A program made the position numbers and the translations under genes. This document shows positions 31,913 to 61,178 of a stretch of DNA of 64,000 bases, piece by piece. Below the pieces are notes generated by a model. The model saw nothing but the letters and a program-made list of their open reading frames with translations, had not been told where the DNA came from and did not search any database. The stretch's first letter is position 1; the number at the start of each line of letters is the position of its first letter. Source of the stretch: Porphyra umbilicalis (taxonomy: Eukaryota; Rhodophyta; Bangiophyceae; Bangiales; Bangiaceae). The stretch lies in assembly GCA_002049455.2 (NCBI GenBank), contig KV918809.1, positions 1 through 64,000 on the forward strand, in the 5' to 3' direction.

Positions 31913-32299
31913 CATTTCTTCCTCGTCTGTCCCCGATGGCTAGTCCACACCTGGCAATCAAGAAACCCATCTCTACTACTCCCCCTCTTTCACCATAGGC
32001 GGTGCCCCACGGGGCCCCCTGCACAGCTCCACTCAGAACTCCGAGGTGGCGCTTTCCCACGCATCGCCGCCGCACCACACAAAGCGTTTCACGACTACCG
32101 CCGAGTGGTCGCGTCCGTATGGCGCGCGACGGACACCGCCGGTCCGTTCGCTTCGAAGCAAACGAACAAGTGTGACCTTCTGAGACTTCTACAGGAATAT
32201 TGGAACAGATTTCTTAAACACGTGTCAACTCCACAAATACACTAAAACCACGCGGAAATCAAACTGAAGTCTGCCCTAGGAAATCAAAGAAAAAAAAAG
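31913..32299. other. intergenic, no gene seen
   Basis: Between the Harbinger-like copy and the duplicated segment that carries the Cys/Lys-rich gene I see no gene, repeat end or RNA feature. Confidence 0.5.
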
Positions 32300-33410
32300 C
32301 GACCCATAGCATGGAGACCGGGCCCCCGCCGCCGGTGCTCCGCCGCCCAGCAGGCGCTGGAGCCATCTGGGGCTCTCCGTTTACTGCGTCCTTCTCGCTG
32401 TTTCCCCAGACGGCTTCGTCTGATTTTCTGTGCGACTGCTGCCGTCCTCGGGCGATGTGTCACTGCACTTTTGTCTACTTCCGTATTATATGCTGGCAAT
32501 GACATGGACATCATGTCAATGGTAATGTATTCCTACTGGTCGCCTCCTTCCTGTCCCATGCGCCCAGGTGAGCGGGGCACCGAAGAGGGGGGGATCACCG
32601 ACACGCCGTTGCCCCGCGCGCGCCCCCAGCGCCACCGTCGGGAAGCGCCGCATCGGCGCCATTAACCCCCGCCACAGTGGCGGCGGGGGCCACGCCGGGC
32701 CGTCGCGCGGACGCTCTGTTGACCCCCCACCCCCACCCCACGGGTGGCGGCACGTGGGCGAGTCGGCGCCCTGCCAGTGGCGCGGCGCCCCCTTCCCGGC
32801 GGGCGGCTGACGGTCGCCCCCCCCTGCGGCCGTCGCCGTTGGCCTTCCCCCGACCGCCACACTGTCGCGTCCAGCAGTGCGTTGACGCGTGAGCGGGCGG
32901 CCGCGCCCCCGGCGGCTTTCGTCCGCGCGCGCCTCGGCAGCGGTGCGGAGGGGGGGAGGGGGGGTGGGGGGGTCACCACGGTGGGCAAACCCACCCAACG
33001 GGTGGTGCGCCCGCTGGAAGCGCGGTGCGGCTCCCCCACCCCCCCCGCACGCGTGGCCGACGCGGCCCCGCGGCATTGGGCGCCGACCCCCGGGGGGGGG
33101 GGGGGGGGGATCTGGCGTCGTGGCCGCCGGCCCGCCCCGGCCAGCGGGTACAGGCGCGGGCAACGCAGCTTTCCGCGCGGCGCCCGTGCAGTTGCGTGCT
33201 GACGCCTCGAGCTCGCGGGGGGGTGCGTGGCCCCCGGGCGCGGCGGCGGCGCGCGCCGCGACGATGCGGGGGGGAGGGGGGGTCACCGCACTGACACGCG
33301 TGCGCTTTCCCCCCCGCACGTGCGGCGCGCGCGTGCGGCGGGGATCGGCGGCCGCCGGCCGCGGCGGCCGCGTCCCGCGTCGGTCCCACCGCCGCGCGGC
33401 CGCCCCGTCT

Positions 33411-33418
33411 GATAAAAG
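33411..33418 (+). promoter_or_regulatory. TATA-like box of Cys/Lys-rich gene 1
   Basis: GATAAAAG lies 248 bp before the start codon and is followed by a CT/CA-rich leader typical of a 5' untranslated region. The same octamer stands at the same distance before gene 2. Promoter role is inferred. Confidence 0.5.
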
Positions 33419-33658
33419 GACTGCCGGCGCCGTCCCCAGGTGCCCTCTCCTCCCATCATCCACATTCGCAACCTCCACACCACACACACACACAGCGTCC
33501 GCCTCGCCCACTCCACCGCCGCCGTCGCCGCCGACCCGCTTCTACGGCCGTCGCGTCGCACCCGCCGCTGCCGCCGTTGCCGCTTCGCGCTCGCCGCGGC
33601 GACTTTCCGCACGCTTCCCTCCCCCCATCCGCACCCTCCGCCGGCTCCCGCCGTCGCC

Positions 33659-34714
33659 ATGGGTGCCGCCAAGATCCTCGCCGCCGTCGCGGCCGTGTCG
33701 GCCATTGTGACCGTCGGCGCGTCGGCCGCTGACGTGTCCACGTCGGGCAAGCAGTACACGTTCACCCCCCCCGCGCCCTCGGGCGGCGCCACCGCCCGCT
33801 CCGGCTGCACCGTCCGCAAGGTCAAGTGTGGTCAGGACTGCAAGACGGAGAAGGGCGTTTGCGTCAAGTATGGGTGCAACAAGGAGGCGGCGTACGCGTG
33901 CAAAAAGGACGTGACGGTCAAGTTTGACTGCAAGAAGACGTCCGAGTATGACTGCAAGAAGCAGGTGTACAAGACGTACGATTGCGATAAGGTCGTCCAG
34001 CAGTTGGTCAAGAACGGCTGCGAGAGGACGGAGAAGCAAACGTACGGCTGCAACGTCAGCTACAAGGCCAAGTGCGACAAGACGCGGGAGGTGACCAAGA
34101 AGTGCACCAAGACGCAGAAGGAGCCGTGCAAGAAGGAGGTTGACGCGACTTGCACCCGCACCGTCAAGAAGCAGTGCACCAAGACGGAGAAGAAGGAGGA
34201 GGATTGCACCAAGACTTACAAGAAGGAGGTGCGCTGTGAGAATGCTGGCAAGTACGGCTACGACGGCAAGCCGTGCTTTGAGACCATTGCCTACCCGGCC
34301 AAGTGCACGAAGGACGTCAAGACCCCCTATGACTGCAGCTACAAAGAGAAGTATGGCTGCAAGAAGCAGATTGACTCGACGTGCGAGCGCGAGGTCGAGT
34401 CCCTTTGCAAGTCTACGGAGAAGTACCAGGTCGACTGCGACAAGACCCGCTATGACCCCAAGGGCTGCACCCGCGACGTCAAGGTCAAGTTCGACTGCAA
34501 GAAGGACGTCACGGTCAAGTCCAAGTGCGGCAAGAACGAGACCATCGACGCCAAGTGCACCAAGACCGAGCTGGTCAAGAACGGCTGCTCCAAGACGGAG
34601 AAGCAGGACTCCCTGTGCAAGCGCACCACCTTTGACAAGAAGTGCTGCGCCGAGAAGAAGGACGTGACCAAGTGCACGGACAAGTTCTGCGACAAGCGCG
34701 AGTGCACCTACTAA
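33659..34714 (+). CDS. secreted Cys/Lys-rich repeat protein, gene 1
   Basis: A 351-residue protein from ATG 33659, chosen because it opens a signal peptide (AAKILAAVAAVSAIVTVGAS) with a likely cut after ASA at residues 24-25. After a short spacer (about residues 26-60) the rest is a chain of imperfect 11-13-residue repeats of the type YDCKKxVxxxYxCxK. It has 36 cysteines, very many Lys, Asp, Glu and Thr, and two N-glycosylation sequons (NVS, NET). There is no transmembrane segment after the signal. Such composition suggests a disulphide- or lysine-cross-linked extracellular matrix or cell-wall protein. That is inference; I recognise no named family. The gene has no visible intron, strong GC3 and a TATA-like box 248 bp upstream. 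Gene 2 (58989-60044) encodes the same protein with Gly-to-Asp and Lys-to-Thr changes. Confidence 0.93.
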   Translation: MGAAKILAAVAAVSAIVTVGASAADVSTSGKQYTFTPPAPSGGATARSGCTVRKVKCGQDCKTEKGVCVKYGCNKEAAYACKKDVTVKFDCKKTSEYDCKKQVYKTYDCDKVVQQLVKNGCERTEKQTYGCNVSYKAKCDKTREVTKKCTKTQKEPCKKEVDATCTRTVKKQCTKTEKKEEDCTKTYKKEVRCENAGKYGYDGKPCFETIAYPAKCTKDVKTPYDCSYKEKYGCKKQIDSTCEREVESLCKSTEKYQVDCDKTRYDPKGCTRDVKVKFDCKKDVTVKSKCGKNETIDAKCTKTELVKNGCSKTEKQDSLCKRTTFDKKCCAEKKDVTKCTDKFCDKRECTY

Positions 34715-35695
34715 GCGCTGGCGTGGGTGCGCGACGCGAAGTGGGGGGGGGGGGGGGAGGGGGTCTGGTCGGCCACAGGCTGCCGAGGTCGGACGCGGCG
34801 CTGAGCAAGTGACGTAACAGGTGGGGTGGCCCGGCCCGGTGTCTTCTGCTTTTTTGGGGTTTGTGTAGGTGGTAGGACCTGGCTGCAGTGCGGCTGGGAA
34901 CGGCGCGGACTCGTCACTGGGCGCGTAGTCGGAACATATACATATTTATTCGCTTGAATGCCTATCCCCCCGCCGGTCGCCGGTACCCGCTCCCACGACG
35001 GCGGCTGCGGCCAGCGCAGCCACGTCGCCCTCGTCGGCGGGACGTTATTCATCTACCGCGGCGGCCGCGTGCGACGGTGGGATGGCACCATCCAGCGACA
35101 AGCACAGGGGCCACGAGCGGCCGTTCACGGGGCCCGACCGAGACCGCGCCCGGGCAGCCACAGCTCTACGGACGTTTGCCCCCCGCCCGTGGCGACATCG
35201 ACGACGCGCAGCGGCAGCGGCATCCACAACGGCCGCGACGGCACGCTGCCGAGCCGCCGTGACGGGCAGCCGACCACCCCCGTGCGTCGTGGGGGCGGCG
35301 CCGGCGGGGCGCCACGCCACCCCGGTCCGCCCCGCCGAGGGGCCCCGCACGCCCCGCCACCCGCACGGGCGAGCCGGCCAGTGCCGGCGGGGGGCTCCCC
35401 CACCTCGTACCACCCCTCCCACCCGGGCGCGCAGCCGCCCGCAGCCGCCCCCCGCCGACGACAGCCCGCCGGCTCGCGGCGGCGTGGCGGGTCCCGCCGC
35501 ACCGTCGCACCCCCCCCCGCCGCAGCCGGCCCTCCTTGGCGGCAGCCACTGCCCCCTCACGCGCGCGCTGCAGCCAGCCGCCGTCCCGCGCGTCCCCGCC
35601 GCCGGTGCTCCGCCGCCCAGCAGGCGCTGGAGCCATCTGGGGCTCTCCGTTTACTGCGTCCTTCTCGCTGTTTCCCCAGACGGCTTCGTCTGATT

Positions 35696-45394: not shown

Positions 45395-46128
45395 TGCCTC
45401 CACAAGGGTGAAGAACAAAGCGCCGCGGCACCCACCGCCGACGCGAACTTTCGTACGGGTCCGAAAGTAAACACACACACGTAGGTGCACACACAGTTTT
45501 GGCCATGCCTGCGGCGCGCACGCGGGCCAGAAGGCCCTGAGCACGCCCCCCAGTTTCCAACTTTGACGCGGGCCTGGCGGTGGGCGTGATTGCATTGCTT
45601 TGGCAGCAAAGGTTGTTGGGTTTGTCGGGCCAGCAGCAAAGCCCTCGACCAAATCATCTGGCCATCGTGGCACTTTTCATGCTGGGAGCACCCAATATAA
45701 GCGACACGTTTGCGATGATCTCTCGTCCGTCATACCAATGAAGACGCGAACCGCTTCATGCTCACCGGCCCCACGGCCCGCTCCACAAACAAACTGCATA
45801 GGGACTCTGCAGACGCCATATGAAAGCATTCTACAACAAAACACACGACGGGGAACGCTCGAGAGACGCCTATGACCCGGACAAAGACGGCTAGGCCTCG
45901 CAAGCGAGATTCGTGCACGATCGCGGGGCGTTCGTTGACGTGGCATGGCTTCTGGGACCCTTCCGGGCAACGTTGCGCAAGTGACAGTTCCCACAACCAA
46001 TAGGATCACGTCCTTGGCTCGATTTGAAAATCTGCTGGCCGGCAGATTGAAATGCAACACACATTTTCACGCGTGCGCACACATTTTAGTTTTGGCCATC
46101 CTGACCAGTACAGCCTTGTAACTTCGGC
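45395..46128. other. intergenic, no gene seen
   Basis: Mixed composition. A phrase around CACACA(C/T)..TTTTGGCCAT occurs twice (45475-45510 and 46055-46102). No gene or RNA recognised. Confidence 0.45.
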
Positions 46129-47136
46129 GACCCATAGCATGGGGACCTGGCCCCCGCCGCCGGTGCTCCGCCGCCCAGCAGGCGCTGGAGCCATCTGGGG
46201 CTCTCCGTTTACTGCGTCCTTCTCGCTGTTTCCCCAGACGGCTTCGTCTGATTTGCTGTGCGACTGCTGCCGTCCTCGGGCGATGTGTCACTGCACTTTT
46301 GTCTACTGCCGTATTATATGCTGGCAATGACATGGACATCATGTCAGTGGTAATGTATTCCTACTCCTTCCTGGCCCATGCGCCCAGGTGAGCGGGGCAC
46401 CGAAGAGGGGGGGATCACCGACACGCCGTTGCCCCCCGCGCGCCCCCAGCGCCACCGTTGGGAAGCGCCGCATCGGCGCCATTAACCCCCGCCACAGTGG
46501 CGGCGGGGGCCACGCCGGGCCGTCGCGCGGACGCTCTGTTGACCCCCCACCCCCACCCCACGGGTGGCGGCACGTGGGCGAGTCGGCGCCCTGCCAGTGG
46601 CGCGGCGCCCCCTTCCCGGCGGGCGGCTGACGGTCGCCCCCCCCTGCGGCCGTCGCCGTTGGCCTTCCCCCGACCGCCACACTGTCGCGTCCAGCAGTGC
46701 GTTGACGCGTGAGCGGGCGGCCGCGCCCCCGGCGGCTTTCGTCCGCGCGCGCCTCGGCAGCGGTGCGGAGGGGGGGAGGGGGGGTGGGGGGGTCACCACG
46801 GTGGGCAAACCCACCCAACGGGTGGTGCGCCCGCTGGAAGCGCGGCGCGGCTCCCCCACCCCCCCCCGCACGCGTGGCCGACGCGGCCCCGCGGCATTGG
46901 GCGCCGACCCCCGGGGGGGGGGGGGGGGGATCTGGCGTCGTGGCCGCCGGCCCGCCCCGGCCAGCGGGTACAGGCGCGGGCAACGCAGCTTTCCGCGCGG
47001 CGCCCGTGCAGTTGCGTGCTGACGCCTCGAGCTCGCGGGGGGGTGCGTGGCCCCCGGGCGCGGCGGCGGCGCGCGCCGCGACGATGCGGGGGGGAGGGGG
47101 GGTCACCGCACTGACACGCGTGCGCTTTCCCCCCCG
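46129..47136 (+). repeat. upstream half of the second duplicated segment
   Basis: Nearly identical to 32300-33316. It stops exactly at the left target site (CCG, 47134-47136) of the 11.5-kb transposon and continues at 58644. Confidence 0.92.
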
Positions 47137-47610
47137 CACAGTAGATCTTAGACCAGGTACCTGGAAGAACTTGAATTTGCTTGTATCTGGCTTGCACCGG
47201 TTGGTGCAAAGTGTCGATTCCGACCCTCTGAGGGCCTTTTTCTCGTACAAGCGCCGTACAAAGGGGGGCTCCTGGGCGCGCAAAACGGTGACCAGAGCCC
47301 ATTTTGGCATCGTTCGCACCGCAGAAGAGGTGCATGTGAGTCTATAAAAAACGAGCCCTGTCCGTCGTTTTGCTCACCGATAGCGGCCGTAAACGTGTTT
47401 CTTGCATCCAGAAACTTGTATCTGGGACACTGCCTTCGTGCAAGCAGCTTGCACGAGATCTGTGCGGATTCGTGCAGAGATCTTGCACCAAGTGTGCCGA
47501 CATTCAATACAAGCCGGTGCAATGTTCGTGCACGAGCCCGACACCGGTTGCACCACATCGGTACAGCCCGATGCAGCGTGCCTGTATCCAATCGACGCAC
47601 ATTGAGCGGG
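47137..47610. repeat. left terminal and subterminal motif array of the transposon
   Basis: After the inverted repeat, TTGCAC occurs about four times and GTGCAA about three times in both orientations, together with CTTGTATC words. In CACTA elements such arrays bind the element's own accessory protein; here that role is inferred. Confidence 0.7.
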
Positions 47611-47783
47611 CGCCCGGCGCCCGGCGCGGCGCCGGCATTTTGCTACTGGAAGCGCGACAAGCGCGCCCATTCACTCTCACTATGCTCCCATCAGCCACGC
47701 CACACCCCCCCATCCGCCCCCCCCAGGCTGCCGCGGCCGCCCCAGCGCTCTTTCGCCCCCCGCGTTCCGTCCAACCTAACCAG

Positions 47784-50700
47784 TCACGCATCTACCGGGT
47801 GTCCACCAGCCTCACCCCACTCCTCTCGTGCCGCGCGGACGCCTTTCAGACGGCGAAGCAGCGCCACGGCCGCCTCGCAGATGTCCACCCCGTTGACGGT
47901 GCCACTCGTTGCCCACTTGGAAAACTCGTACGTCTTGGTGCGCTGCCGGAAGAGCCGGAGGATGGCCACCTGCTCGAGCAGCTGCCTGTCCACTTCCACC
48001 GACAAGCGCGCGGCGGCGCCAGGGAGGGGTGCTGCCGCGTCGCACGCGCTGTATACCGCGGGGTCGGGGAAAACCAGCGGCAGCAAGGCAGGGGGGGGAA
48101 GAAGGAAGGCAGCGACGCGAGCAGCGCCCGCCGCCTCGATCGGCTGGTATTGTCGACCGGGGCGGTGCCAGCGGACGACGCCGTGGTCGACCCTTGCGGC
48201 AACGACGGTGCGGGAGTAGGGACCTGGTCCGTGCCCGCCCCCGACGCGCCGCCGCCGTCCGCCGAGGCGGCCGGCGCAAGGGCCGCAGCTACGCCAGCGC
48301 TAGATGACGCTCCCGCCGTCCGTCCGCCCTCTCCCTCAGCGTATGCGCTCTGGCCGTCAGCTCCAGCTGTCCCTGTCGCGGCGGCCGCCACGGCGGCGCG
48401 CACGGCAGCGGCTCTGCGGGCGGCGGCGAGCTCGACTATTGCACTCTTCGGCCGGCCCTGCAGCCGACCACACACGCAGACACAAATTTCCCGCTGCCGT
48501 ACTCGCAGGCCACGTCGGAGGGCCTCCTTTTTTCCGAGGACCCTCGTGCCGTCGGGGCGGAACCGCGCCGCGCCATTCGCGTCGACGGCCGCTCGAAGAG
48601 GCGCGAGGGTGATTCGCAACTCGTCGCCGCCACGGAGCTCCTCCAGCTCTAGCGCCGCGTCGTCGCGGGCCAGCGCGCGCACGGCCTCTACGTCGGCTGG
48701 TCCGTCGCGCCCGAAGGCCTTCCAGCATCGGCACACGCGGACGACCTTCGTGAAGACGAGGGAGGAGGGGTGTGAGCGCGGGGTAGAAAAGCCAATGGTC
48801 GCCTTTTGCACCGCCGCCATGTTGGAGAGGAGCTCCGCTGGCGACGCGTTGTTGCTGTGATTGTGCAAGTAGCGCCCGACGCCGCGGATGTGGCCCTCCA
48901 TATTGTCGTCCGACACGAAGGCCACCTCGGCGCGCGCCGCCCCGCTTTGCCCCCGCACGTGCACAATAGGGGCGTGCAGGTGGAGGGTTGACACCTTGGC
49001 GTCCTTGGTGACCGGGTCCAGCGGCTTCACGTCCTCCCACAGGGGCCCTAGCAGGGACGCAGCCAGTTGCGCGGCGGCGGCCGAGCCCTCCCGCACGGCG
49101 GCGCCCGGGCCCGTCAGGGCGCCCCGCCACGCGGCGTTCATCAACTGCGTCAGCTGCAGGAGGATAGAAAACGCCGGGTCGAGAGAGTTGCTGAACACGG
49201 CGGGGTGGACGACAGCAGCAGCGACCAGCTCCCGAAACTCCCGCAGGTAGAGGCTGCCCATCGAGCCCTTGCCAGAGATGGCGAGAAGGACCCGTCTGGC
49301 CTTGTCCTGTAGGCCTGCGGGTTGGCACGCCAATATAAACAGCACCACCCGCTTGGCGTAATTGCCCGTGCAGTGCAGCACGGGCAGTTGGAGGGACACG
49401 GGGGCGCCGCGCAGGGGCGGGTAGCCGCACACGCCGCCGGCCAGGCGACGGAAGCCGTTGAAGCACTCGGTCATCGTCGTCATAGCGATCGAGCGCCCGA
49501 CGTGTAGCGGCACGTCTGCCGCCAGGCAGTGGGCTCCCCGACAGTAGACGATGCCGCTGTCCTGCACCGGCTCGGAGGAGTAGGGGACGAGACGCTTGCA
49601 CATCGTGCAGGTCGTGTACAGCTCGCCGCCGAAAATCGTCACGTCAGCGTGGTAGCGGACGGAAAAGTTTGCTAGCGCCCACACCGCTAGCTCCCACTGA
49701 CCGCCGACGACAGCGACGGTGCGGTCTTGGTTTGATGAGACGTTACGGCTCAGCCGCAAAAAGGTCGACAGCCGACACAAGGCGCTGATAGGGCAGCGGC
49801 CGGCGTCGCTGCCGCCGGTCAGACCCCAAAGGATGTGTCCCATGGAGAAGTCGGCTGCGATAAGTGGGGGAGGGCGGAGGGGGGGGAAGAGGTGGTGGGG
49901 GGGGGGGGGGGGCACGTGGCGTTAAGCATGAAAAGGGTACCTGACATCGCGCTTTGGCCGACGCAGAGGAGGGCGTTAGTTTCCGTCGCTGGAAAGCGTG
50001 CTCCCCGCCCGGCCCAGTACACGCCCCGTGGCGGCGCCCCCCACACCCTGCTCGTACCCTCCATGGGCTCGCTGACCTACCGCAGACAGAAATGGTGGGG
50101 CAGAGCCGCAGGGGTCGGCGCCCGCCGCAGGCGTCGACGCTCTGAAGTGCCTGGGATCCTTCCACCTCGGGCGTGGCAGCCACAGTGAACGTGTGCTGGA
50201 CGAGCGTCTTGAGGGTGTCCCGCACAAACGCCCACAGGCCGCGGTCGACGACTTTCTCCCCCGAGAGCACGTACGCGACGGGGGTCAGGTTTGTCCGCCC
50301 GTGCGCGAGCAGGGGCGACGACAAAGAGACTGTGAGGGCGGTCAGCTGCCGCCGCTTGATGGTCCCTCCGTCAGCTGCAAACGTCAAGACCGCCGGCGAA
50401 GCGGTGGCAATCCGGGAGACGGTGGCCCCGGCGACCGCCGCCTGGTCAATGGCCAACTGGAGCGCCTCTTGCACGTCAAAGGCGACCGCCAAAATCTTGA
50501 GGGGGCTGCCCCCGTCGAGGTCCTCCAAGTAGGACTCGGCGTGCACCTGCAGCGCCGCCAGCGCCTTCGGGTCGTCCGGCACCTCCGCGTAGCACCCCTC
50601 CGTCTCGGCGCTGGCGTTGAAAAAGAAGATGCCCCCGTCTTCGTCCTCCGACACGACCTCCTCGCTCCCGCCACGGACCTCAACACCGGTGCCGCCCGTC

Positions 50701-51860
50701 GCGCCGGCGTCCTCCCAGTAGGTGTTGGCGGGGCTCTTAAGGCTCCTCTGCTGCCCCCATCGGTTCTGGTACCGCCGTACACCCGCCGCGCCGCTGCCAC
50801 CAATGTAGTCCCATCGCAGGAGCCCCCCCATTACCGCTCGCGTGAAGAAAAAGTGGCCGACGCCATCTCGCTCAAATGCGACACGCCGCTCCTCCCGCAG
50901 CTCCGCGCGTGTCGGGAACAGATGCATCTGCGAGAGGCCGTGTGATAGCCTCAGCCGGCCGGCGCGGGAGCGGCCACTTCGGTCGCCTCGGTGGACGAGC
51001 TCCACCCACGCACGAGTGCGCGCCACGGAGCCAGCCGAGTGTCCGTCCCGCAGCAGCTGCGCCCACCGGCCGCGGGCAGCCTCCTCGCCCTTTCGCTTGT
51101 AGGTGCCGGCGCCGACCCGCGACGCCCGCCGCTTTGCCGCCCTCGTGGCGGCTAAGTAGACGGGGTCGACTGTCACGTCGCGCCGCTGCACAAATGACAC
51201 GTGGCCGTGCGCGACCGCCGAGCGGCTTGTCGCAGTGGCCGTCGCCGCGCGCCTCGCAACGTCTTGCAGGTCCTCCGAGCTCAAGGCCTGTCCTTCGCCC
51301 AGCCCCCGAAAGGAAGACCACGCCTCCCCCGTATGCCACCCACCAGCTTCCTGAGCGCACGCCGACGCGACGAAAGCGACCGACTGAATGGCATCAGCAC
51401 GGGAGCCATACATGGCAGGTACCAAGTGCGACAGAGCCCGCACGTAGACCTCGAGGGGCGGCATCCAGGCCGCCGCTCTGACGACCACGACCGCTGATAG
51501 GCGCTCCACATCATCCGAACAGCCCGACAGTGGCCCGCGGATGATCCAGCGTCGACACTGTGTGCCGCGGTGGGCGGCGCAGCGGATTGCGGCCGCACAG
51601 CCCGACGGGTGGGCATTGGTGGCTGCCGCCGAGCAGGCTGGCGGCTCGACGCCCTCCACCTCGACGACCCGAAAAGCTGGCGCCTGACACCTGCGCCGGC
51701 CTTGGCTGCCGGAGGTGTACTGGCCGCGCTCGTTGCGCTTCCGCACCAGGGCGGCCCCACGAAAATCGACGGAGGGGTGAGTCGGCGCTGCACCGCTGCT
51801 CTCCGACGATGCGGAAGAGGCGTCGGTCAGGTCATCGTCGTCCGTGGGGGAGTCCGGCAT
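47784..51860 (-). CDS. putative DDE-type transposase of the 11.5-kb element
   Basis: Start ATG 51860 has a purine at -3; another ATG lies at 51977 in weaker context. Exon 1 runs to 50081, intron 49855-50080 has a GTAGGT donor and a TTATCGCAG acceptor, and the joined frame (VC-A-DFSMGHILWGL) stays open. Exon 2 continues to about 48160. The best C-terminus (VEVDRQLLEQVAILRLFRQR) is in another frame, joined through an acceptor at 48049 or a frameshift, and ends at 47784; total about 1240 residues. Motifs suggest a DDE nuclease like those of CACTA and KDZ transposons. There is an early Asp in LTFAADGGTIKRRQ (about residue 497) and VVGGQWELAVW (about 643) followed by a CTMC zinc pair (about 675). 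A late acidic segment VSDDNMEGHIRGVGRYLHNH (about 913) is followed by NNASPAELL. In relatives the second motif carries Asp where GG is seen here, so catalytic competence is uncertain. Confidence 0.6.
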
Positions 51861-52322
51861 GGCCGGGATGGTGGGGGAGGGGGGGGTCCGGCGTGTGTGA
51901 GACAGGGAGGAAAGACAGCAGTCGGGGCACGACGATCCGCTGCACGCGCACCACCAACAGCGGTGCGTAGCAGACATTGACACTGCGGCCGCTCAATTGG
52001 TCAATGCCATTGGGGCATGTCCTTGAAACTCCCCCTCCGCTCCGTGGCGATTTGGTGCATCCCGCGAGCCTCGTTAACATATCTAACCGCACTACAGGCC
52101 TCATTCGCAGGCTTGGACCTAATCTCTCCTCCGTGGGCACGCTTCAGGGGACGGGCGGGAAAAGGTCGGCCATACAGGGAGCCCCGCATGAATGTTTATG
52201 GTCGGCCAGCGCTTTTTATGGGGCGTACCCATCGCTTTTCCGAATGAATGAGCCAGAACCCAACGCGTCGGTTGCCGATACTGACAATTTCCGTCACCGC
52301 TTCACACACACGACGGACGGCC

Positions 52323-52412
52323 ATCGCCGTCCCCGACCCCTCGATCGTCCCCACCGCTATCGTCCCCATCGCCGTCCCCAACCCCTCCATCGTCCCCACC
52401 GCTATCGTCACC
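52323..52412. repeat. 45-bp tandem duplication inside the transposon
   Basis: Two full 45-bp units (ATCGCCGTCCCC... ) and the start of a third. In one plus-strand frame (52248-52628) they encode a 15-residue repeat (IAVPDPSIVPTAIVP). I do not consider that frame a proven gene. Confidence 0.7.
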
Positions 52413-53529
52413 ATCGCCAAGACCGTAAACACCGTCAACGTCCTCCCCAGCGCCCTCTCGAGCGCCCCTCCCCCCTGCAAGGCTGGCCATGACGTGGGTG
52501 GCGGGCGCCAGCGGCGAGCGACACTGCATGGGTGTCGTGATAGCAGTCGCCACCGGCTGCTACGGGGCAGCGCGGCCGTGGTTGTTCCGCTGAATCCTCG
52601 CCCCATCATGGTGGCCCGCGGATGTTGACGCCCTCCCCGACACGGCACCCGGAAGGTCACTCCCTGCCGCGTGGTGTCGCCCCGTGCCTCCCCCCTCCTG
52701 AGCCGTCACCCATGTCGGAGCCTATCGCTCCTGGATCCTCTGTGCGTGTGGAGGAGCGCAGTTTATCTGTGGCTCGGAGCATAGTGACGGGGTACAATGG
52801 TCGGATGAGCTTGTAGAGCGCTGGCAGGGCTGGTGGACTGTTGCTAACGGTTGCTATCTCTCATGACTGTGTTTTAGGGCGCCCTGGATATCCTGCTGCC
52901 TGTTACATTTGCGATTCTTCCATTGATGGCCTGGGCAGTACTACCGCTTCCACGCTGTGCCTGTGGGATCACGGCAGTCGCAAAGACCTGCAGGACCCAA
53001 GAGGGGCATTTCTCTTGGCCGGCGCGTCGGCGGGGGGCGGCTCATCCTCCTCCTTTTCGCCACAGTCGCCGCCGCGCTCTCGAAAGGCGGCGTTCCGGTC
53101 ACCCTTGGGCAGCCGTCCTCCCTCTTGTGGATTTGAGGGGGCTCCTGGCGTCGGCACCGCGCGGGTGGCGGGCGCCAACGACGCCCGCGGGCGACATGCG
53201 GGCGCTCGGCGCCCATTCTGGGTCAACGCCGCCACCGCCTTCACCGCAGCCGTCGCCGCACCAGCGTCGGCGCGGTTCACTATGTAGGGGGCGGTGGCTT
53301 TACCGCCGCGCTTGGGCCGGCCTCGGAGAGCACGGCGGCAGGATGCGTGCGGTGAGAAAGTGTGGGGAGCTTGAGCAACACGAAGGCATCGTCAGTCCAG
53401 CGTCGGGAAAGACATGGAATACCACCAGCAACGGAAAGATATGGAATGCCACCAGCAACCGTAGCCAAGAAGCAAAACGTGCTGAACGGGCATCCTTGTC
53501 GCCGCGGCTCAAAAAAAAATAAATAAACC

Positions 53530-53636
53530 AGGTGATTGCAGGGAATCGAACCCCCAATTTTCGGACCGTGGGCACTATGGCCCACGCTTACGTCTTACAC
53601 GTCAGGGGCCTCTTCTACCACTAGGCCACCCATGCG
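53530..53636 (-). other. tRNA-like sequence with Pol III A and B boxes
   Basis: The minus strand has TGGCCTAGTGG (A box) with a perfect 4-bp D stem (GCCT/AGGC) and, about 65 bases on, a perfect GGTTCGATTCC (B box). The 3' side runs into a T-rich tail. The acceptor ends do not pair and the anticodon region is longer than standard, so it is more likely a tRNA-derived SINE or pseudogene than a working tRNA. Confidence 0.4.
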
Positions 53637-53871
53637 ATTTCCTCGCGGTTTGGCACTCGGCTGCATTCTGCATATTTATACTGTGCCGTTTCTTTTGAAA
53701 TGTTCGATTCGTCTTGATCCTAGTGAGGGATTCCTTGGGCTTCTTCCCCCACGACCGAAAATATGAGACCGGTGCATAACAACGACATTTGCGCGAGGTC
53801 GTGGTGTATGGCGAATCCATTCAATGCAGACTGTACTGTACAGTGAGACACATCCCTCTCTGTCGACCACC

Positions 53872-54620
53872 ATGAGCCGCCGCCAACCCTGCAACAGCAG
53901 AAGTCGCAACCGACAGACTCCGTCAAAGTTACGGAGGACAAGCATTGGCCTGCCCCCCCACCCCAAGCGCACCCCCCCCCGGCAACCCCCTCCCAGGGAC
54001 CCCTCCCCCAGGCGCGCCCGCGCCCCCACTGGCACCCCCCACTTCCCGCACCCGCCTCACCGTGACGGGCAACCACAGCCTCGCCGCCGACTACTCGCGT
54101 CTGGTCAACGCCAGATCCGCTGCGCTTGCGTTTTCTCCGGCCGGCAGCACCCACCTGCTCCTTATCTCCCTCTCCGGCGGCCGCGTCGACGTGCTCCACG
54201 TTGCCGCGGAGGAGTGGGCCGCCGCCCTTGACAGATGGGAGCGGGTCGTTGGCTCTGTCGCCTCCTCGGCGTGCGGGGGGCAGGTCGCCGTCGTCCACGC
54301 CGACGGCCTGAGCGTGTGCGTGTGACGGCTGGCGTCGGGGTTGTGCGTGGAGGAGCAGTAGCGCATCAACCTCGTCATGCCACCGCCGCGGCTGGTGGGA
54401 GGGGTGGCGCGGGCGGGGAGCGCCCCCGCCGCGGCCGCCTGAGCAGTCTTCGTACGCAGACGGGCGACAAAGCGCAGACGCCACAGCCGCAGTCGTCGCC
54501 GTCCCTTACAGGTGTCGACGTCACTCAAGCTCGGGGTCCCCGCCCTGGTGACGGCGACACCCAAGGTTGTCACAGGCCGCCGCCACCCACGCGATGACGA
54601 CCTTGGGCGGGGCAGGTTGT
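53872..54620 (+). pseudogene. decayed gene inside the transposon
   Basis: A Pro-rich leader is followed, in the frame open from about 53945, by protein-like text (LTVTGNHSLAADYSRLVNAR, then ALAFSPAGSTHLLLISLSGG and GGQVAVVHADGLSVCV). This has the feel of beta-propeller repeats, but I cannot assign it. The frame is cut by TGA at about 54323, TAG at about 54359 and another TGA near 54440, yet the same frame remains protein-like between them (RLASGLCVEEQ, RINLVMPPPRLVGG). Successive stops in one frame indicate a dead gene. It lies between the transposase and the accessory gene. Confidence 0.4.
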
Positions 54621-56083
54621 CAACGCCACGACACTCACGGCCGCCTTGTGGTCGGCCAAGAGGGATGAAACGCAATCGACCGTAGAGCGGAATGTGGCAA
54701 CAGGAGGGCAAACGAGCGAAAAGCACACACCATCCAACACGAGCGGGGAGAGTTAGAAAGCAGATGTAGGACACCAGCATGCCACCACCCGTCCACCTAC
54801 CCTCCCACCCGGCCGCGCATACTGACCAGAGAAACACGACAAGAGCAGACAAGAGTAGCTGCCCAGCATACAAATACATGTGTGGGCCAGCGGCACAAAG
54901 AAGGTCCCCCCAACCACTCGCCACCTACCAAATCGCAGCTCGTCCACCCACAGCCAGACAGCGCATCAGGCTCTTGCGGCCAGCGGAGTGACTATGGACG
55001 TCTTCAGTGCGGCCACGTCGGCTGCTACCAACTTACCGACTGCTGGAGGTGAGCGGAGCAGGGGAGTAAGGGCCGAGGGGGGAGGGGGCGGTGGTGGTCG
55101 GGAGCAGGACGCGAGGGTGACGGCGGGTGGCGGTGCGGCGTCGCGGTGGCGACGACAGCGGTCCGTCGCGGAGCAGCGAACGTGGCGGCCAGTGGACGTT
55201 CCCACCGCGGAATCGAGTGTCGGTTGGCAGGGAGGCTACGGGTCTTGAAAAGCGATAGGAACGGATCTCAAAGTGCCGAGAGGTGCTGTGAAACCCCGGC
55301 CTGAGGAGGCAGAGACCTCCCCTTTTGCCCAAGCCTCCCGGCTTACGATGTAAAAAGTCCCAAGGGACACACTTAGGGACGCAAAAGCAGCGTACATGGC
55401 ATTAATAGAGGTTTGTAAGCGGGGCCACCTTTGGGACTTGGTTCAGTGGTAGGTGTGGCCGCGACTTCGCGGTTCTAATTCGAGGTTACCGTACGACGAC
55501 AGGTGGATGGCGTAGCGTCTTCTCCCTTTTCTCTCGCTCGGCGCTACGAGGATCTGTGATTGTCATTGTCGTTTGCAGTGCGGGCGCTCACGCCAGCAAG
55601 GCGGGCCCGAGCGCAACGGCCGCTTTCCGGGCACGCGGTAGGTACGGTGGTTCCAATGCCATTCCCTGCCGTGTACGGCTAGCGGTGGCCCCTGAGCACG
55701 CGGTGGTGTGGCGGCTGGCGGAAGAGCGACCGCCGGGCTACGGGCGTACCTGCCTGCAAGAGGCGGGCATTTAGTTGCTGGTACGTCTTGGTCGAATCTG
55801 TGCAGGGCACTGGCTGTGGCGCTTGTGGAGGGCGATGGTGGAGAGCGCTGGTGGAGGGATGTGAGGGTGAGTAGGGAGGCGGAAAACAGAAGCCGGCCGC
55901 CGGGCTACGAGCGTGGCCTGTTCGGTCGGCGGCCGCCTTCTGGGGAACGGGACATGCAAGCCATTCTTTCGATTGTCAAGAGACAGAGGGCAGCCCCAAG
56001 CGACGATCAGCCAACTGCCGACGGACCGAGTGCGACGGCCAGTGACCGCTTGTGTTACGTTCTCCCCCTCCTCCCCACCCGCC
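54621..56083. other. internal transposon spacer
   Basis: No credible gene. A tRNA-like phrase (TTGGTTCAGTGGTAGG) occurs at 55437-55453 without a proper B box at the right distance. Close upstream of 56084 the sequence is CT-rich, as expected for a leader. Confidence 0.45.
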
Positions 56084-58077
56084 ATGACGCCCGCCGAGAC
56101 ATTCTCTGTCGCCCTCCGCCTGGCCTTTGAGGTAACCCCCATTGATTCTGTGCACGGGTCCAATGTCCCGATGCTCTACCTTCTCCACATCGTCATGCAC
56201 TTCCGCAACTTGGTCAAGGTGCACTCGGCCGCCGACACGGCGGCCCTGGCCAAGTACATGCAGGAGCTCTTCGAGAAGTGCAACGTTAAAGGAGCTGTTT
56301 CCGTCCTTGCCGGTGCCCTCGGGGTCGAAGCCGAAAATTTGGACGTCAAGGAACGCGTGGTGGTATGTTGTGCCACTCCTGTTACCCCCGCACCTCCCTT
56401 CCATCTCTCCTTTTCTTGTCGAGCTTGTAGAGTGATACCTGTGCCCCATGATCGTCCACGTGGGCAGACGCTGACCACAGCTTACCGCTTCTCATTTGCA
56501 TACTGCTCGTTTGTCGGGCGCCTCTGCTGTGTACCGCGTCCCCTCGGGGCCTGGTGTGTGAACAGATTGGCAAGCACGTGCAGCACCAGCCCTTCCTCTT
56601 CAACAGCATCGAGGCGGTGGCGCTCGTCAACCCCGGCAAGAAAGAGCGCGCATGGGTGTGCAAGAACATTCGGGGGCGAGAGGGCTGGCTGCTCCCCGCG
56701 CCCGCCGGCCGACCGGCAGCGACGCCGGCGCTGACCGCGGCCGAGGCGGCCGCGGTGGCTAAGAATGTGTCTGAAATTCTAGGCAACAGCGGCACGGGGC
56801 TCCCCGGCTGTTGCAAGGCAGAGCGGATCGAGGCCTCTGTCGACGACTCGTCGGGCGACGGCAGTGCCCCGGTGGCAGGGAGCACCCCCCCCGCTGCCAT
56901 CAAGGTCGCCTTTAACCGGACAGATGCCCACAGGGCGGACCCTTGCTCCACGCCACTGCTGGACACCCTTCGCCCGCGTATGATTCCCGGCGGGGCGACG
57001 ATCGACGCGGCGTCGTCGGCCACCGCGGGTGGCCGCGGCCGCCGCGGTCGCACCGCTCGCGGTGGGGGAGCGCCCGCGGGTGGCGCTGGTGGCGCCCGCC
57101 CGCCACCCACGCCACCGGTGTCAGGTGTGGCCAAGCCCCGCCGGGGCAGGCGGGGCGCCGGGGTGGCCAAGTCTGTCCGCTCCGTGCGCACCGAGGAGCA
57201 GAACGCGCAGCTGGTGGCGGCCGAGGAGATGGCAACGGACGCCTTTCTGCAGGGGCAGGCAGCGGCCGACGTCGTCACGCCGCCCTACACGGTCAGGGAG
57301 GTCGAGCCCAACAAGGCGTGGGCCCACGGCGGCGTCTTGGTGGTCGTCCAGTTTCCCTTTGCCATCGACGACTCGTGGCGCCAGTCGCTGACTCACTCGC
57401 ACGCCAAGTGTCGCCTCGTCGTTCCTGCGGGCACCGCCGTCGGGGGCGGCCTGTACCTCGCCGCGGTGGGGCTCTACAACCCCAACGCCATCCGAGCGGT
57501 GGCTTCGGGAGACGCAGAGCATGAGGCCGCCCGTACCGACGACGGGGCTGCCGAGAAGGACGGTGTTGAGGGTGACGACGCGGGGGAGGGGAGCGGAGAC
57601 GAGGGGAGTGGGAGCAGCGGCGTTGGTGATGGCTCCCAGGATGGGGGGCCACAGGGAGGGGACGGCGGCACGCGCGAGGGTGGTGCCGGCGACCACGGCA
57701 CCAGCGGCGGCGGCGGTGGTGACGGCGGTATCGGCGGCCCGCCCCCCTATGTGGGGGACAAGCGCGACACGTCACCGTCTCGTGCGGCTACCCGCTTCCT
57801 GCCCGTCTCTATCGGCCTCCACGACGTGTACCTGAGCGCGCTCGGCATGACCAATGCCCAAGTGGGCGTAGCAGCGGGGTCGGTCGTGCGGATGCGCCTT
57901 ATCAAGGGCTCGGCGCCGTCCCCGTTTGAGCTAGAGTTGCCGTTCTACTACCCAAAGGACCTGGACGTGACCGCACAGGCGTCGTGCGTGTTCCAGGATC
58001 GCAACCAGATTGCAGTTGGCTTCCCCACAGTCGCACCATTGGCGGGCGAGCAGCACTCCTTTGTGATGAAGGATTAG
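56084..58077 (+). CDS. accessory protein of the 11.5-kb transposon
   Basis: ATG 56084 stands in CCGCCATGACG. Exon 1 (56084-56362) ends at a GTATGT donor and exon 2 starts at 56566 after AACAG; the 203-bp intron is phase 0 and the spliced frame gives about 597 residues. The N-terminus (residues 1-130) looks helical (LLHIVMHFRNLVKVHSAADT, MQELFEKCNVKGAVSVLAGA). The middle carries Arg/Gly runs resembling AT-hooks or RGG boxes (GGRGRRGRTARGGG, KPRRGRRGAG). A beta-rich region follows (VLVVVQFPFAIDDSWRQSLT), then a Gly/Asp/Glu-rich linker and a conserved-looking end (ELELPFYYPKDLDV). I know no family. By position and basic centre it could be the subterminal-repeat-binding partner of the transposase, as TnpA is in Spm; this is inference. 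Confidence 0.7.
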
Positions 58078-58249
58078 TGTCCCCACTGTTGGTGTTGTGC
58101 TTCTTTGCGGCGCGCGTTTTTTTCTGGGCTTTGTGTTGTGCTCTGTTGGCTCCACTGTCCGTTGCCACGGCGGACAAACGTAAACGTCCCTGTTGTAGCA
58201 ACCGTGGGCACACCCTGCTACGGGTTGACTCGACTCTGTCGCTGTCACA

Positions 58250-58643
58250 CGCACCCTCCGAGCAACTGGCGCCACTGTGCACGCGCGCCGCGCAGACTGT
58301 ACCGGCCGCGGCACGACTTGTGCATGGCGCCTGTACGGCCGCTGCACGATTTGTGCATGGCGCCTGTACGGCCGCTGCACGATTCGTGTACGGCGCCTGC
58401 ACCGCCGCCGTGCAACCAGATACAGACAGTCTGCACGGCACCGGTGCAAGGTTGATGCATCGAATCGATGCAATTTCCCCGTCGCAAGCCTGCCTCCGTG
58501 CAAGTGTCGTACATGTGTCATACAAAAACTTTGTACCAAAACCACCCGATCCGTACAAGAAATCGAGGCTTGTATCAGCTTGTATCCAATTGTATTCAAG
58601 CAGATACAAGATCTTCCAGGGACATGGTCTAAGCCCCACTGTG
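58250..58643. repeat. right subterminal motif array and terminal repeat of the transposon
   Basis: Copies of TTGTGCATGGCGCCTGTACG and related GTGCAA/TGCACG words repeat at about 36-bp spacing between 58315 and 58420. More GTGCAA sites and CTTGTATC words follow up to the terminal repeat. The composition mirrors the left end. Confidence 0.75.
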
Positions 58644-58740
58644 CCGCACGTGCGGCGCGCGCGTGCGGCGGGGATCGGCGGCCGCCGGCCGCGGCGGCCG
58701 CGTCCCGCGTCGGTACCACCGCCGCGCGGCCGCCCCGTCT

Positions 58741-58748
58741 GATAAAAG
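58741..58748 (+). promoter_or_regulatory. TATA-like box of Cys/Lys-rich gene 2
   Basis: GATAAAAG, 248 bp before the start codon as in gene 1, and only 97 bp from the right end of the 11.5-kb transposon. Any promoter element farther upstream has been replaced by transposon DNA. Confidence 0.5.
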
Positions 58749-58988
58749 GACTGCCGGCGCCGTCCCCAGGTGCCCTCTCCTCCCATCATCCACATTCGCA
58801 ACCTCCACACCACACACACACACAGCGTCCGCCTCGCCCACTCCACCGCCGCCGTCGCCGCCGACCCGCTTCTACGGCCGTCGCGTCGCACCCGCCGCTG
58901 CCGCCGTTGCCGCTTCGCGCTCGCCGCGGCGACTTTCCGCACGCTTCCCTCCCCCCATCCGCACCCTCCGCCGGCTCCCGCCGCCACC

Positions 58989-60044
58989 ATGGGTGCCGCC
59001 AAGATCCTCGCCGCCGTCGCGGCCGTGTCGGCCATTGTGACCGTCGGCGCGTCGGCCGCTGACGTGTCCACGTCGGGCAAGCAGTACACGTTCACCCCCC
59101 CCGCGCCCTCGGGCGGCGCCACCGCCCGCTCCGGCTGCACCGTCCGCAAGGTCAAGTGTGGTCAGGACTGCAAGACGGAGAAGGGCGTTTGCGTCAAGTA
59201 TGGGTGCAACAAGGAGGCGGCGTACGCGTGCAAAAAGGACGTGACGGTCAAGTTTGACTGCAAGAAGACGTCCGAGTATGACTGCAAGAAGCAGGTGTAC
59301 AAGACGTACGATTGCGATAAGGTCGTCCAGCAGTTGGTCAAGAACGGCTGCGAGAGGACGGAGAAGCAAACGTACGGCTGCAACGTCAGCTACAAGGCCA
59401 AGTGCGACAAGACGCGGGAGGTGACCAAGAAGTGCACCAAGACGCAGAAGGAGCCGTGCAAGAAGGAGGTTGACGCGACTTGCACCCGCACCGTCAAGAA
59501 GCAGTGCACCAAGACGGAGAAGAAGGAGGAGGATTGCACCAAGACTTACAAGAAGGAGGTGCGCTGTGAGAATGCTGGCAAGTACGACTACGACGGCAAG
59601 CCGTGCTTTGAGACCATTGCCTACCCGGCCAAGTGCACGAAGGACGTCAAGACCCCCTATGACTGCAGCTACAAAGAGAAGTATGGCTGCAAGAAGCAGA
59701 TTGACTCGACGTGCGAGCGCGAGGTCGAGTCCCTTTGCAAGTCTACGGAGAAGTACCAGGTCGACTGCGACAAGACCCGCTATGACCCCAAGGGCTGCAC
59801 CCGCGACGTCAAGGTCAAGTTCGACTGCACGAAGGACGTCACGGTCAAGTCCAAGTGCGGCAAGAACGAGACCATCGACGCCAAGTGCACCAAGACCGAG
59901 CTGGTCAAGAACGGCTGCTCCAAGACGGAGAAGCAGGACTCCCTGTGCAAGCGCACCACCTTTGACAAGAAGTGCTGCGCCGAGAAGAAGGACGTGACCA
60001 AGTGCACGGACAAGTTCTGCGACAAGCGCGAGTGCACCTACTAA
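58989..60044 (+). CDS. secreted Cys/Lys-rich repeat protein, gene 2
   Basis: A 351-residue paralogue of the protein at 33659-34714, with the same signal peptide, 36 cysteines and two sequons. The coding sequences differ at two bases as far as I can see, both amino-acid changing: Gly to Asp in KYGYDGK (59586) and Lys to Thr in FDCKKDVTV (59829). Just before the start codon CCGTCGCC of gene 1 is CCGCCACC here, a better eukaryotic start context. The frame is intact, so the gene was either duplicated very recently or homogenised, and the upstream transposon insertion has not led to decay. Role as an extracellular structural protein is inferred from composition. Confidence 0.93.
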   Translation: MGAAKILAAVAAVSAIVTVGASAADVSTSGKQYTFTPPAPSGGATARSGCTVRKVKCGQDCKTEKGVCVKYGCNKEAAYACKKDVTVKFDCKKTSEYDCKKQVYKTYDCDKVVQQLVKNGCERTEKQTYGCNVSYKAKCDKTREVTKKCTKTQKEPCKKEVDATCTRTVKKQCTKTEKKEEDCTKTYKKEVRCENAGKYDYDGKPCFETIAYPAKCTKDVKTPYDCSYKEKYGCKKQIDSTCEREVESLCKSTEKYQVDCDKTRYDPKGCTRDVKVKFDCTKDVTVKSKCGKNETIDAKCTKTELVKNGCSKTEKQDSLCKRTTFDKKCCAEKKDVTKCTDKFCDKRECTY

Positions 60045-61178
60045 GCGCTGGCGTGGGTGCGCGACGCGAAGTGGGGGGGGGGGGGGGCTGAGGGGGTCAG
60101 GTCGGCCACAGGCTGCCGGGGTCGGACGCGGCGATGAGCAAGTGACGTAACAGGTGGGGTGGCCCGGCCCGGTGTCTTCTGCTTTTTTAGGGTTTGTGTA
60201 GGTGGTAGGACCTGGCTGCAGTGCGGCTGGGAACGGCGCGGACTCGTCACTGGGCGCGTAGTCGGAACATATACATATTTATTCGCTTGAATGCCTATCC
60301 CCCCGCCGGTCGCCGGTACCCGCTCCCACGACGTCGGCTGCGGCCAGCGCAGCCACGTCGCCCTCATCGGCGGGACGTTATTCATCTACCGCGGCGGCCG
60401 CGTGCGACGGTGTGATGGCACCATCCAGCGACAAGCACAGGGGCCACGAGCGGCCGTTCACGGGGCCCGACCGAGACCGCGTCCGGGGAGCCACAGCTCT
60501 ACGGACGTTTGCCCCCCGCCCGTGGCGACATCGACGACGCGCAGCGGCAGCGGCATCCACAACGGCCGCGACGGCACGCTGCCGAGCCGCCGTGACGGGC
60601 AGCCGACCACCCCCGTGCGTCGTGGGGGGCGGCGCCGGCGGGGGGCCACGCCACCCCGGTCCGCCCCGTCGAGGGGCCCCGCACGCCCCGCCACCCGCAC
60701 GGCCGAGCCGGCCAGTGCCGGCGGGGGGCTCCCCCACCCCGCACCACCCCTCCCACCCGGGCGCGCAGCCGCCCGCAGCCGCCCCCCCGCCGACGACAGC
60801 CCGCCGGCTCGCGGCGGCGTGGCGGGTCCCGCCGCACCGTCGCACCCCCCCCCGCCGCAGCCGGTACTCCTTGGCGGCAGCCACTGCCCCCTCACGCGCG
60901 CGCTGCAGCCAGCCGCCGTCCCGCGCGTCCCCGCCGCCGGTGCTCCGCCGCCCAGCAGGCGCTGGAGCCATCTGGGGCTCTCCGTTTACTGCGTCCTTCT
61001 CGCTGTTTCCCCAGACGGCTTCGTCCGATTTTCTGTGCGACTGCTGCCGTCCTCGGGCGATGTGTCACTGCACTTTTGTCTACTGCCGTATTATATGCTG
61101 GCAATGACATGGACATCATGTCAATGGTAATGTATTCCTACTGGTGCCCTCCTTTCTGTCCCATGCGCCCAGGTGAGC

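Follow-up and report, generated by a model that had tools for sequence, protein, structure and literature searches.

The first 64,000 nucleotides of contig KV918809.1 of the bangiophyte red alga Porphyra umbilicalis, here called the window, carry at positions 47137-58643 a DNA transposon of 11,507 bp. It is very probably a complete two-gene cut-and-paste element that combines a D-D-E transposase core of the RAG1/Transib type with CACTA-like ends and a CACTA-like insertion footprint, and that represents a separate lineage of the CMCT clade (CACTA-Mirage-Chapaev-Transib/RAG). Its borders are demonstrated by an uninterrupted paralogous site and recur in further copies, its catalytic residues are conserved among relatives, and its transposase is predicted to fold like RAG1. 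It is placed apart from both CACTA and Transib/RAG because the ends and footprint are CACTA-like, the predicted fold is RAG1/Transib-like and the sequence detectably matches neither. A sequence-only reading of the window had assigned the element to no named family and had seen in it a mixture of CACTA and Kyakuja-Dileera-Zisupton (KDZ) features. The first view is supported in that no Pfam model names the element. The mixture has to be given up, since the motifs cited for it are those of the CMCT group and the predicted fold is that of RAG1.

Borders, copies and insertion footprint

Both borders are exact, as read from the terminal sequences and the flanks. The left terminus begins CACAGTAGATCTTAGACC and the right terminus, read inward, begins CACAGTGGGGCTTAGACC; the two are identical at 37 of the first 45 bases. 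A target-site duplication (TSD) of CCG stands on each flank. Once joined, the flanks align at 98.9% identity to window 32309-34316, where a single CCG is found at 33314 and nothing is inserted. The empty sister segment is therefore real, and this uninterrupted site demonstrates the borders and the duplication directly. Thus a complete 11.5-kb transposon with both ends visible, a 3-bp duplication and an empty sister site, all proposed from the sequence, are confirmed. The host segment itself is duplicated (window 32299-35695 versus 46127-47139 and 58644-61030, about 98-99% identical), with the element in only one of the two copies. An open reading frame (ORF) at 58920-60044, for a lysine- and cysteine-rich, repetitive, secreted-looking protein, adjoins the element, and its segment is also present in the sister segment.

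The left and right 164 bp of the element, searched against its own genome, match at least 30 and at least 40 places, respectively; among the right-end matches, the weaker ones (76-80%) appear to belong to sister families. Two further complete copies, C145 (11,533 bp) and C71 (11,531 bp), are each about 99% identical to the window copy. Pairwise, the three differ at 76-94 of about 11,500 sites, and the element is recently active. Another copy (G000:C192:105128-127260) spans 22,133 bp, contains three inserts as well as a short gap, and is 93-97% identical where aligned. Its inserts measure 9.4, 0.64 and 0.76 kb; the largest is seemingly bordered on both sides by TCAAGACC (by eye), a hint of an 8-bp duplication.

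Twelve of the 18 copies read are short (1,091-1,097 bp). One of these, C196, shares 353 bp with the large element on the left and 251 bp on the right and has a distinct middle portion; the remaining eleven match C196 over their own full length at 93-99%. These copies of about 1.09 kb, having the same ends, are probably mobilised by the element's transposase. Two short copies of 1,092 bp lie in the same orientation 43 bp apart with different TSDs, CGG and CCG (G000:C640:8316-10542). Both end queries also find a minus-strand short copy at 88-90% identity (G000:C49:64214-65297), which lies about 5.6 kb beyond the element's right end and just outside the window.

Copy C69 is without its right terminal bases and was dropped from the TSD count, which leaves 17 two-ended copies. 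All 17 carry CACAG at both ends, and 16 are flanked by identical 3-bp duplications, 15 of which fit CNG (the exception is ATG; CNG frequency in the window 0.098, P about 1e-14). The mismatched pair CAG/CGG of the remaining copy, C155, is put down to its splitting, as this short copy is interrupted by a 6.8-kb insertion carrying a KDZ hit. The sequence-only reading had looked to other genomic copies as a check on its borders, and the full-length and short copies found with the element ends use the same ones, C69 being incomplete on the right.

The subterminal arrays noticed earlier are real. The first 464 bp of the element contain 13 copies of the motif TTGYAY and the last 389 bp contain 11, in both orientations. 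This density of 28 per kb compares with 1.0 per kb elsewhere in the element and 1.6 per kb in the window outside it, and 2000 Markov simulations never produced a count as high as that observed, at the left or at the right end.

A transposase with a RAG1-like predicted fold

The transposase gene consists of two exons, with splice sites inferred from the sequence (Table 1). Two or three exons had been proposed; two stand, whereas the third is rejected as an artefact of a C-run near 48090 that is one base shorter in the window copy than in C145 and C71. The resulting frame break lies past the catalytic E, in the C-terminal tail, while C71 reads through in one frame and C145 has the C-run length of C71. 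In the C71 copy (L049 4957-9153) the transposase intron is in frame and stop-free, the whole gene lying in one stop-to-stop frame of 1,398 amino acids. Among protein-database relatives, P0040 (Porphyra umbilicalis BU14_0072s0018) is 100% identical over 679 amino acids to the C27 copy, and two others are labelled Pyropia yezoensis. Compared with five diverged sisters, the exon-2 core has ratios of nonsynonymous to synonymous divergence (dN/dS) of 0.15-0.39; synonymous sites are saturated, so that these values support constraint and are no exact measure of it.

The catalytic residues are conserved across the alignment of relatives. The first D, in FAADGG, is found in 39 of the 41 rows with a residue at that position, and the second, in xADFSM (alignment pattern xDFSM or xDFAM), in 50 of 52. 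The cysteines of the CxxC (positions 357 and 360; CTMC) are present in 55/55 and 54/55 rows, the histidines of the H-x4-H in 57/57 (H567) and 56/57 (H572), and the E of SDDNMEG (E593) in all 56. A further cysteine pair follows the CxxC (C378, 55/55; C383, 54/55), which makes a separate four-cysteine zinc site possible. As set out by Kojima (PMC12730594), the CMCT clade is defined by a D-D-E triad with C(2)C and H(3-4)H motifs between the second D and the E, by CA..TG termini and by a TSD of 2-5 bp. The element has each of these, and its predicted structure has a catalytic fold of the RAG1 type.

In the structure model, each of the two Ds is located within a strand or at its end, and the E is part of a helix. 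RAG1 and ProtoRAG are the only significant Foldseek matches, Transib coming next by a second aligner, and a viral structure library contains no match to the model at E <= 0.001. In addition, the transposase has a VLHCTGN motif that we take to resemble the RAG1 motif around LHC.

Several points weigh against a separate lineage with a RAG1-type core. Against RAG1 and BbRAGL, Foldseek gives moderate TM-scores (0.36-0.42 when normalised by query length, 0.43-0.55 by target length, with a root-mean-square deviation of 6-8). The protein modelled is a Pyropia relative, about 47% identical, rather than the window's own transposase; a first model, built for a more distant relative (P0017) from 18 sequences, was of too low quality to be used (predicted local distance difference test, pLDDT, 51.9). 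The structures compared included none of CACTA, Chapaev or Plavaka to compete with RAG1. The zinc site may differ from that of RAG1, given the second cysteine pair. At the sequence level neither RAG1 nor CACTA is matched, and Pfam gives nothing credible. Furthermore, the few coding changes among the young complete copies show no strong constraint: their counts are small and mixed, exon 1 between the window copy and C145 having dN 0.0077 and dS 0.0063 and the other young-copy comparisons having dN below dS. In the second gene, finally, Pfam recognises no domain, and the PDB sequence matches are at chance level only.

Table 1. Features of the element and of its empty sister site (window coordinates).
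Feature	Positions	Strand	Basis or remark
Paralogous empty site, same flanks	32309..34316	+	single CCG at 33314-33316
Left TSD, CCG	47134..47136	.	flank reading
Left terminal inverted repeat, begins CACAGTA	47137..47181	+	end comparison
Left subterminal TTGYAY array	47181..47600	.	motif count
Transposase exon 2	47784..49854	-
Codons in exon 2: second D	49850-49852	-
Codons in exon 2: CxxC	49607-49609, 49598-49600	-
Codon in exon 2: LHC His	49373-49375	-
Codons in exon 2: H-x4-H	48974-48976, 48959-48961	-
Codon in exon 2: catalytic E	48896-48898	-
Transposase intron, GTAGGT...CGCAG	49855..50080	-	inferred from sequence
Transposase exon 1	50081..51860	-	ATG 51858-51860; first catalytic D (FAADGG) codon 50370-50372
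Central region separating the divergent gene pair	51861..56083	.	short tandem repeats; two tRNA/SINE-like stretches (by eye)
Second gene, exon 1	56084..56362	+	open frame and splice-site sequence
Second gene, intron, GTATGT...ACAG	56363..56565	+	inferred from sequence
Second gene, exon 2	56566..58077	+	basic Arg/Gly-rich stretch, acidic Gly-rich linker; partly conserved in sister copies
Right subterminal TTGYAY array	58255..58600	.	33-bp tandem repeat at 58297-58408
Right terminal inverted repeat, begins CACAGTG	58599..58643	-	end comparison; equals the consensus heptamer of the recombination signal sequence
Right TSD, CCG	58644..58646	.	flank reading

The two tRNA-like stretches of the central region (53527-53626 and about 55430-55500) have A-box- and B-box-like sequences by eye and are possibly heads of short interspersed elements (SINEs). 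ARAGORN calls no tRNA in the window, these stretches included, and Rfam finds nothing in the window at gathering scores.

Placement within the CMCT clade

For the profile searches the element's own genome served as a built-in control, hits being compared with the 40 places of the transposase; the hit lists are lower bounds. This genome is rich in other transposons, with at least 150 scored hits to Transposase_21 (PF02992; 176 candidates), at least 123 to Plavaka (PF18759; 169 candidates) and at least 34 to KDZ (PF18758). These were the profiles that the sequence-only reading had proposed to try, and although all match elsewhere in the genome, none matches at the 40 places (on shared contigs, nearest Transposase_21 hit 22 kb away, nearest KDZ hit 15 kb). 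Profile-profile comparison by hhalign with KDZ (six ORFs) and CACTA (seven ORFs) proteins of the same genome, themselves shallow profiles, yields no match. A Pfam search of the element's proteins and of 18 plus 4 relatives returns nothing credible, the best chance-like hit having an E of 0.012 in one member; one relative, P0002, bears a precomputed PF11775 label. Scanned at E <= 10, the genome lacks any hit to the RAG1 profile PF12940, which the Pfam results for the 18 relatives at E <= 5 do not list either; the control genomes, however, were equally without a hit. The transposase profile finds nothing above chance level among PDB sequences (best E 0.13), and seven pattern matches in viral contigs include no relative. 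Searches of the open-licence literature listed no paper on transposons of RAG1-like, Transib or CACTA type from either Porphyra or Pyropia.

Could this be an ordinary CACTA/EnSpm family, too divergent for the Transposase_21 model to recognise? This is unlikely, although it deserves to be taken seriously. Subterminal arrays are a hallmark of CACTA elements, and the CAC termini, the 3-bp duplication and the arrays by which the sequence-only reading pointed to this group all stand. The Transposase_21 profile and the terminal pentamer speak the other way: the profile matches abundantly elsewhere in the genome and at none of this transposase's places, the CACTA ORFs of the genome give nothing, shallow as their profiles are, and the ends read CACAG instead of CACTA or CACTG. 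In favour of such a family, CAC...GTG ends with a 3-bp TSD are used for EnSpm assignment in PMC12730594, where C(2)C and H(3-4)H motifs are also described as common to CACTA transposases.

Alternatively, the element may be a lineage of the RAG1/Transib side whose TSD shifted from 5 to 3 bp, a reading that we hold to be less probable still. It agrees with the Foldseek matches, with a right end that is exactly CACAGTG and with the VLHCTGN motif, presumably similar to one in RAG1. However, the TSD is 5 bp in RAG, ProtoRAG and the pelagophyte RAG-like (RAGL) transposon, the fold comparison lacked a competing CACTA structure, and the ends are near-symmetric, with no spacer difference of the 12/23 type seen. 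Moreover, the second gene is not recognisably RAG2, and the two genes are divergent rather than convergent.

A KDZ or Plavaka transposon, suggested by the motif impression of the sequence-only reading and by the H-x3-H that KDZ proteins of the same genome show before the E (alignment, by eye), can be dismissed, being contradicted by the profiles, by the TSD length (7-8 bp in KDZ) and by the termini (TGT..ACA or CATCA..TGATG in Plavaka), as these are given in PMC12730594.

A separate CMCT lineage is therefore preferred; it may lie nearer RAG1 or nearer CACTA, as the fold comparison included no CACTA structure. The lineage appears to be new, the main risk to this being an overlooked match in Repbase, which in 2015 already listed 1,181 families from the red alga Chondrus.

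The second gene, a possible mechanism and known systems

The second gene encodes a product of about 596 amino acids in two exons predicted from the open frame and splice-site sequence, which bears out the separate two-exon basic protein described earlier. Its Arg/Gly-rich basic stretch is presumably AT-hook-like. An 80-residue query from this protein finds 14 places in the genome. At 12 of these a transposase hit lies 7.4-18.1 kb away on the same contig in divergent orientation (the window, C71, C145, C192, C27, the second C49 copy, C14, C51, C30, C17, C89 and C123); the two others, a C192 fragment and a place on C126, have no such neighbour. In eight diverged sisters with both genes, the transposase is 37-71% identical to that of the window where aligned. 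Pairwise identities among these sisters (98% for C27 with the second C49 copy, 84% for C14/C51, 75% for C89/C123, 34-62% for the other listed pairs) resolve six groups, no two of which are more than 75% identical. Since the divergent pair is kept across all six, the two-gene layout is old.

The same layout makes it improbable that the second gene was captured from the host or is a passenger outside the transposition machinery. Such an origin would fit the lack of a known domain, the two matches without an adjoining transposase hit and the similarity to more distant sisters, which is confined to part of the query, at its shortest 34 residues.

How might such an element move? The transposase would have an RNase-H core of the RAG1/Transib type, with a long, mostly helical insertion bearing the conserved cysteines and histidines between the second D and the E, and would pair the two CACAGT ends. 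By analogy with RAG1 and Transib, it probably nicks beside CAC and then forms a hairpin on the flank, leaving blunt element ends. Cutting by a nick and a flanking hairpin is described for RAG1 and HzTransib in PMC6941560. Strand transfer with a 3-bp stagger at CNG sites would then produce the duplications that are observed. The second protein probably binds the TTGYAY arrays and helps to assemble the ends, in a role comparable to that of TNPA or RAG2.

RAG1 is the enzyme that rearranges vertebrate antibody genes, and accounts of how V(D)J recombination arose run through RAG-like and Transib transposons. CACTA transposons have been tied to these mainly through short shared motifs. The element joins a RAG1-like predicted fold and the heptamer of the recombination signal sequence to CACTA-like ends and footprint, within a deep algal group and with young, near-identical copies. 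It is thus well suited in practice to testing whether CACTA-type transposons, too, use the RAG hairpin route for cutting, and it offers a concrete template for tracking down an overlooked group in the genomes of red algae. More tentatively, it may belong to an ancient, hitherto unrecognised red-algal two-gene lineage in which RAG1-type catalysis and a perfect heptamer go together with a CACTA-type 3-bp footprint, a strong preference for CNG targets and an accessory protein of its own. If true, this RAG1-fold branch would reveal the relationship between the two halves of the clade, CACTA and RAG/Transib.

Among known systems, the RAG1 core and ProtoRAG (BbRAGL) are the closest in predicted structure. 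The right end matches the CACAGTG heptamer at 7/7 positions and the left end at 6/7. Differences lie in the TSD, the near-symmetric ends, the divergent genes, the lack of a recognisable RAG2 and the lack of detected sequence-level similarity. The structural match to Transib (HzTransib) is weaker than that to RAG1; Transib elements have a 5-bp TSD and a single transposase gene. CACTA/EnSpm elements have a canonical CACTA/CACTG terminal pentamer, subterminal arrays of short motifs and a second gene. The element resembles them in its CAC..GTG ends, 3-bp TSD, C(2)C and H(3-4)H motifs, arrays and second gene, and differs in its terminal CACAG and in being missed by Transposase_21.

The papers drawn on are PMC12730594, PMC9435367, PMC8289069, PMC6941560 and PMC4455052. 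Plavaka, ESTA and Lanisha are placed in the same proposed clade and mostly have 2-5 bp TSDs and CA..TG ends, ESTA making TA duplications and Lanisha being a cited Repbase report (PMC12730594); the Plavaka profile does not match the element's transposase. RAG and RAG-like transposons are described with 5-bp TSDs and bipartite, unequal ends (PMC9435367, PMC6941560), neither of which the element has. RAG-like elements have already been reported in an alga, the pelagophyte Aureococcus (Tao et al., 2022, PMC9435367). As described there, the Aureococcus RAGL transposon resembles the element in being RAG1-type, algal and two-gened, and differs in its 5-bp TSD, its asymmetric ends with 4/13-bp spacers and its recognisable RAG1L and RAG2L.

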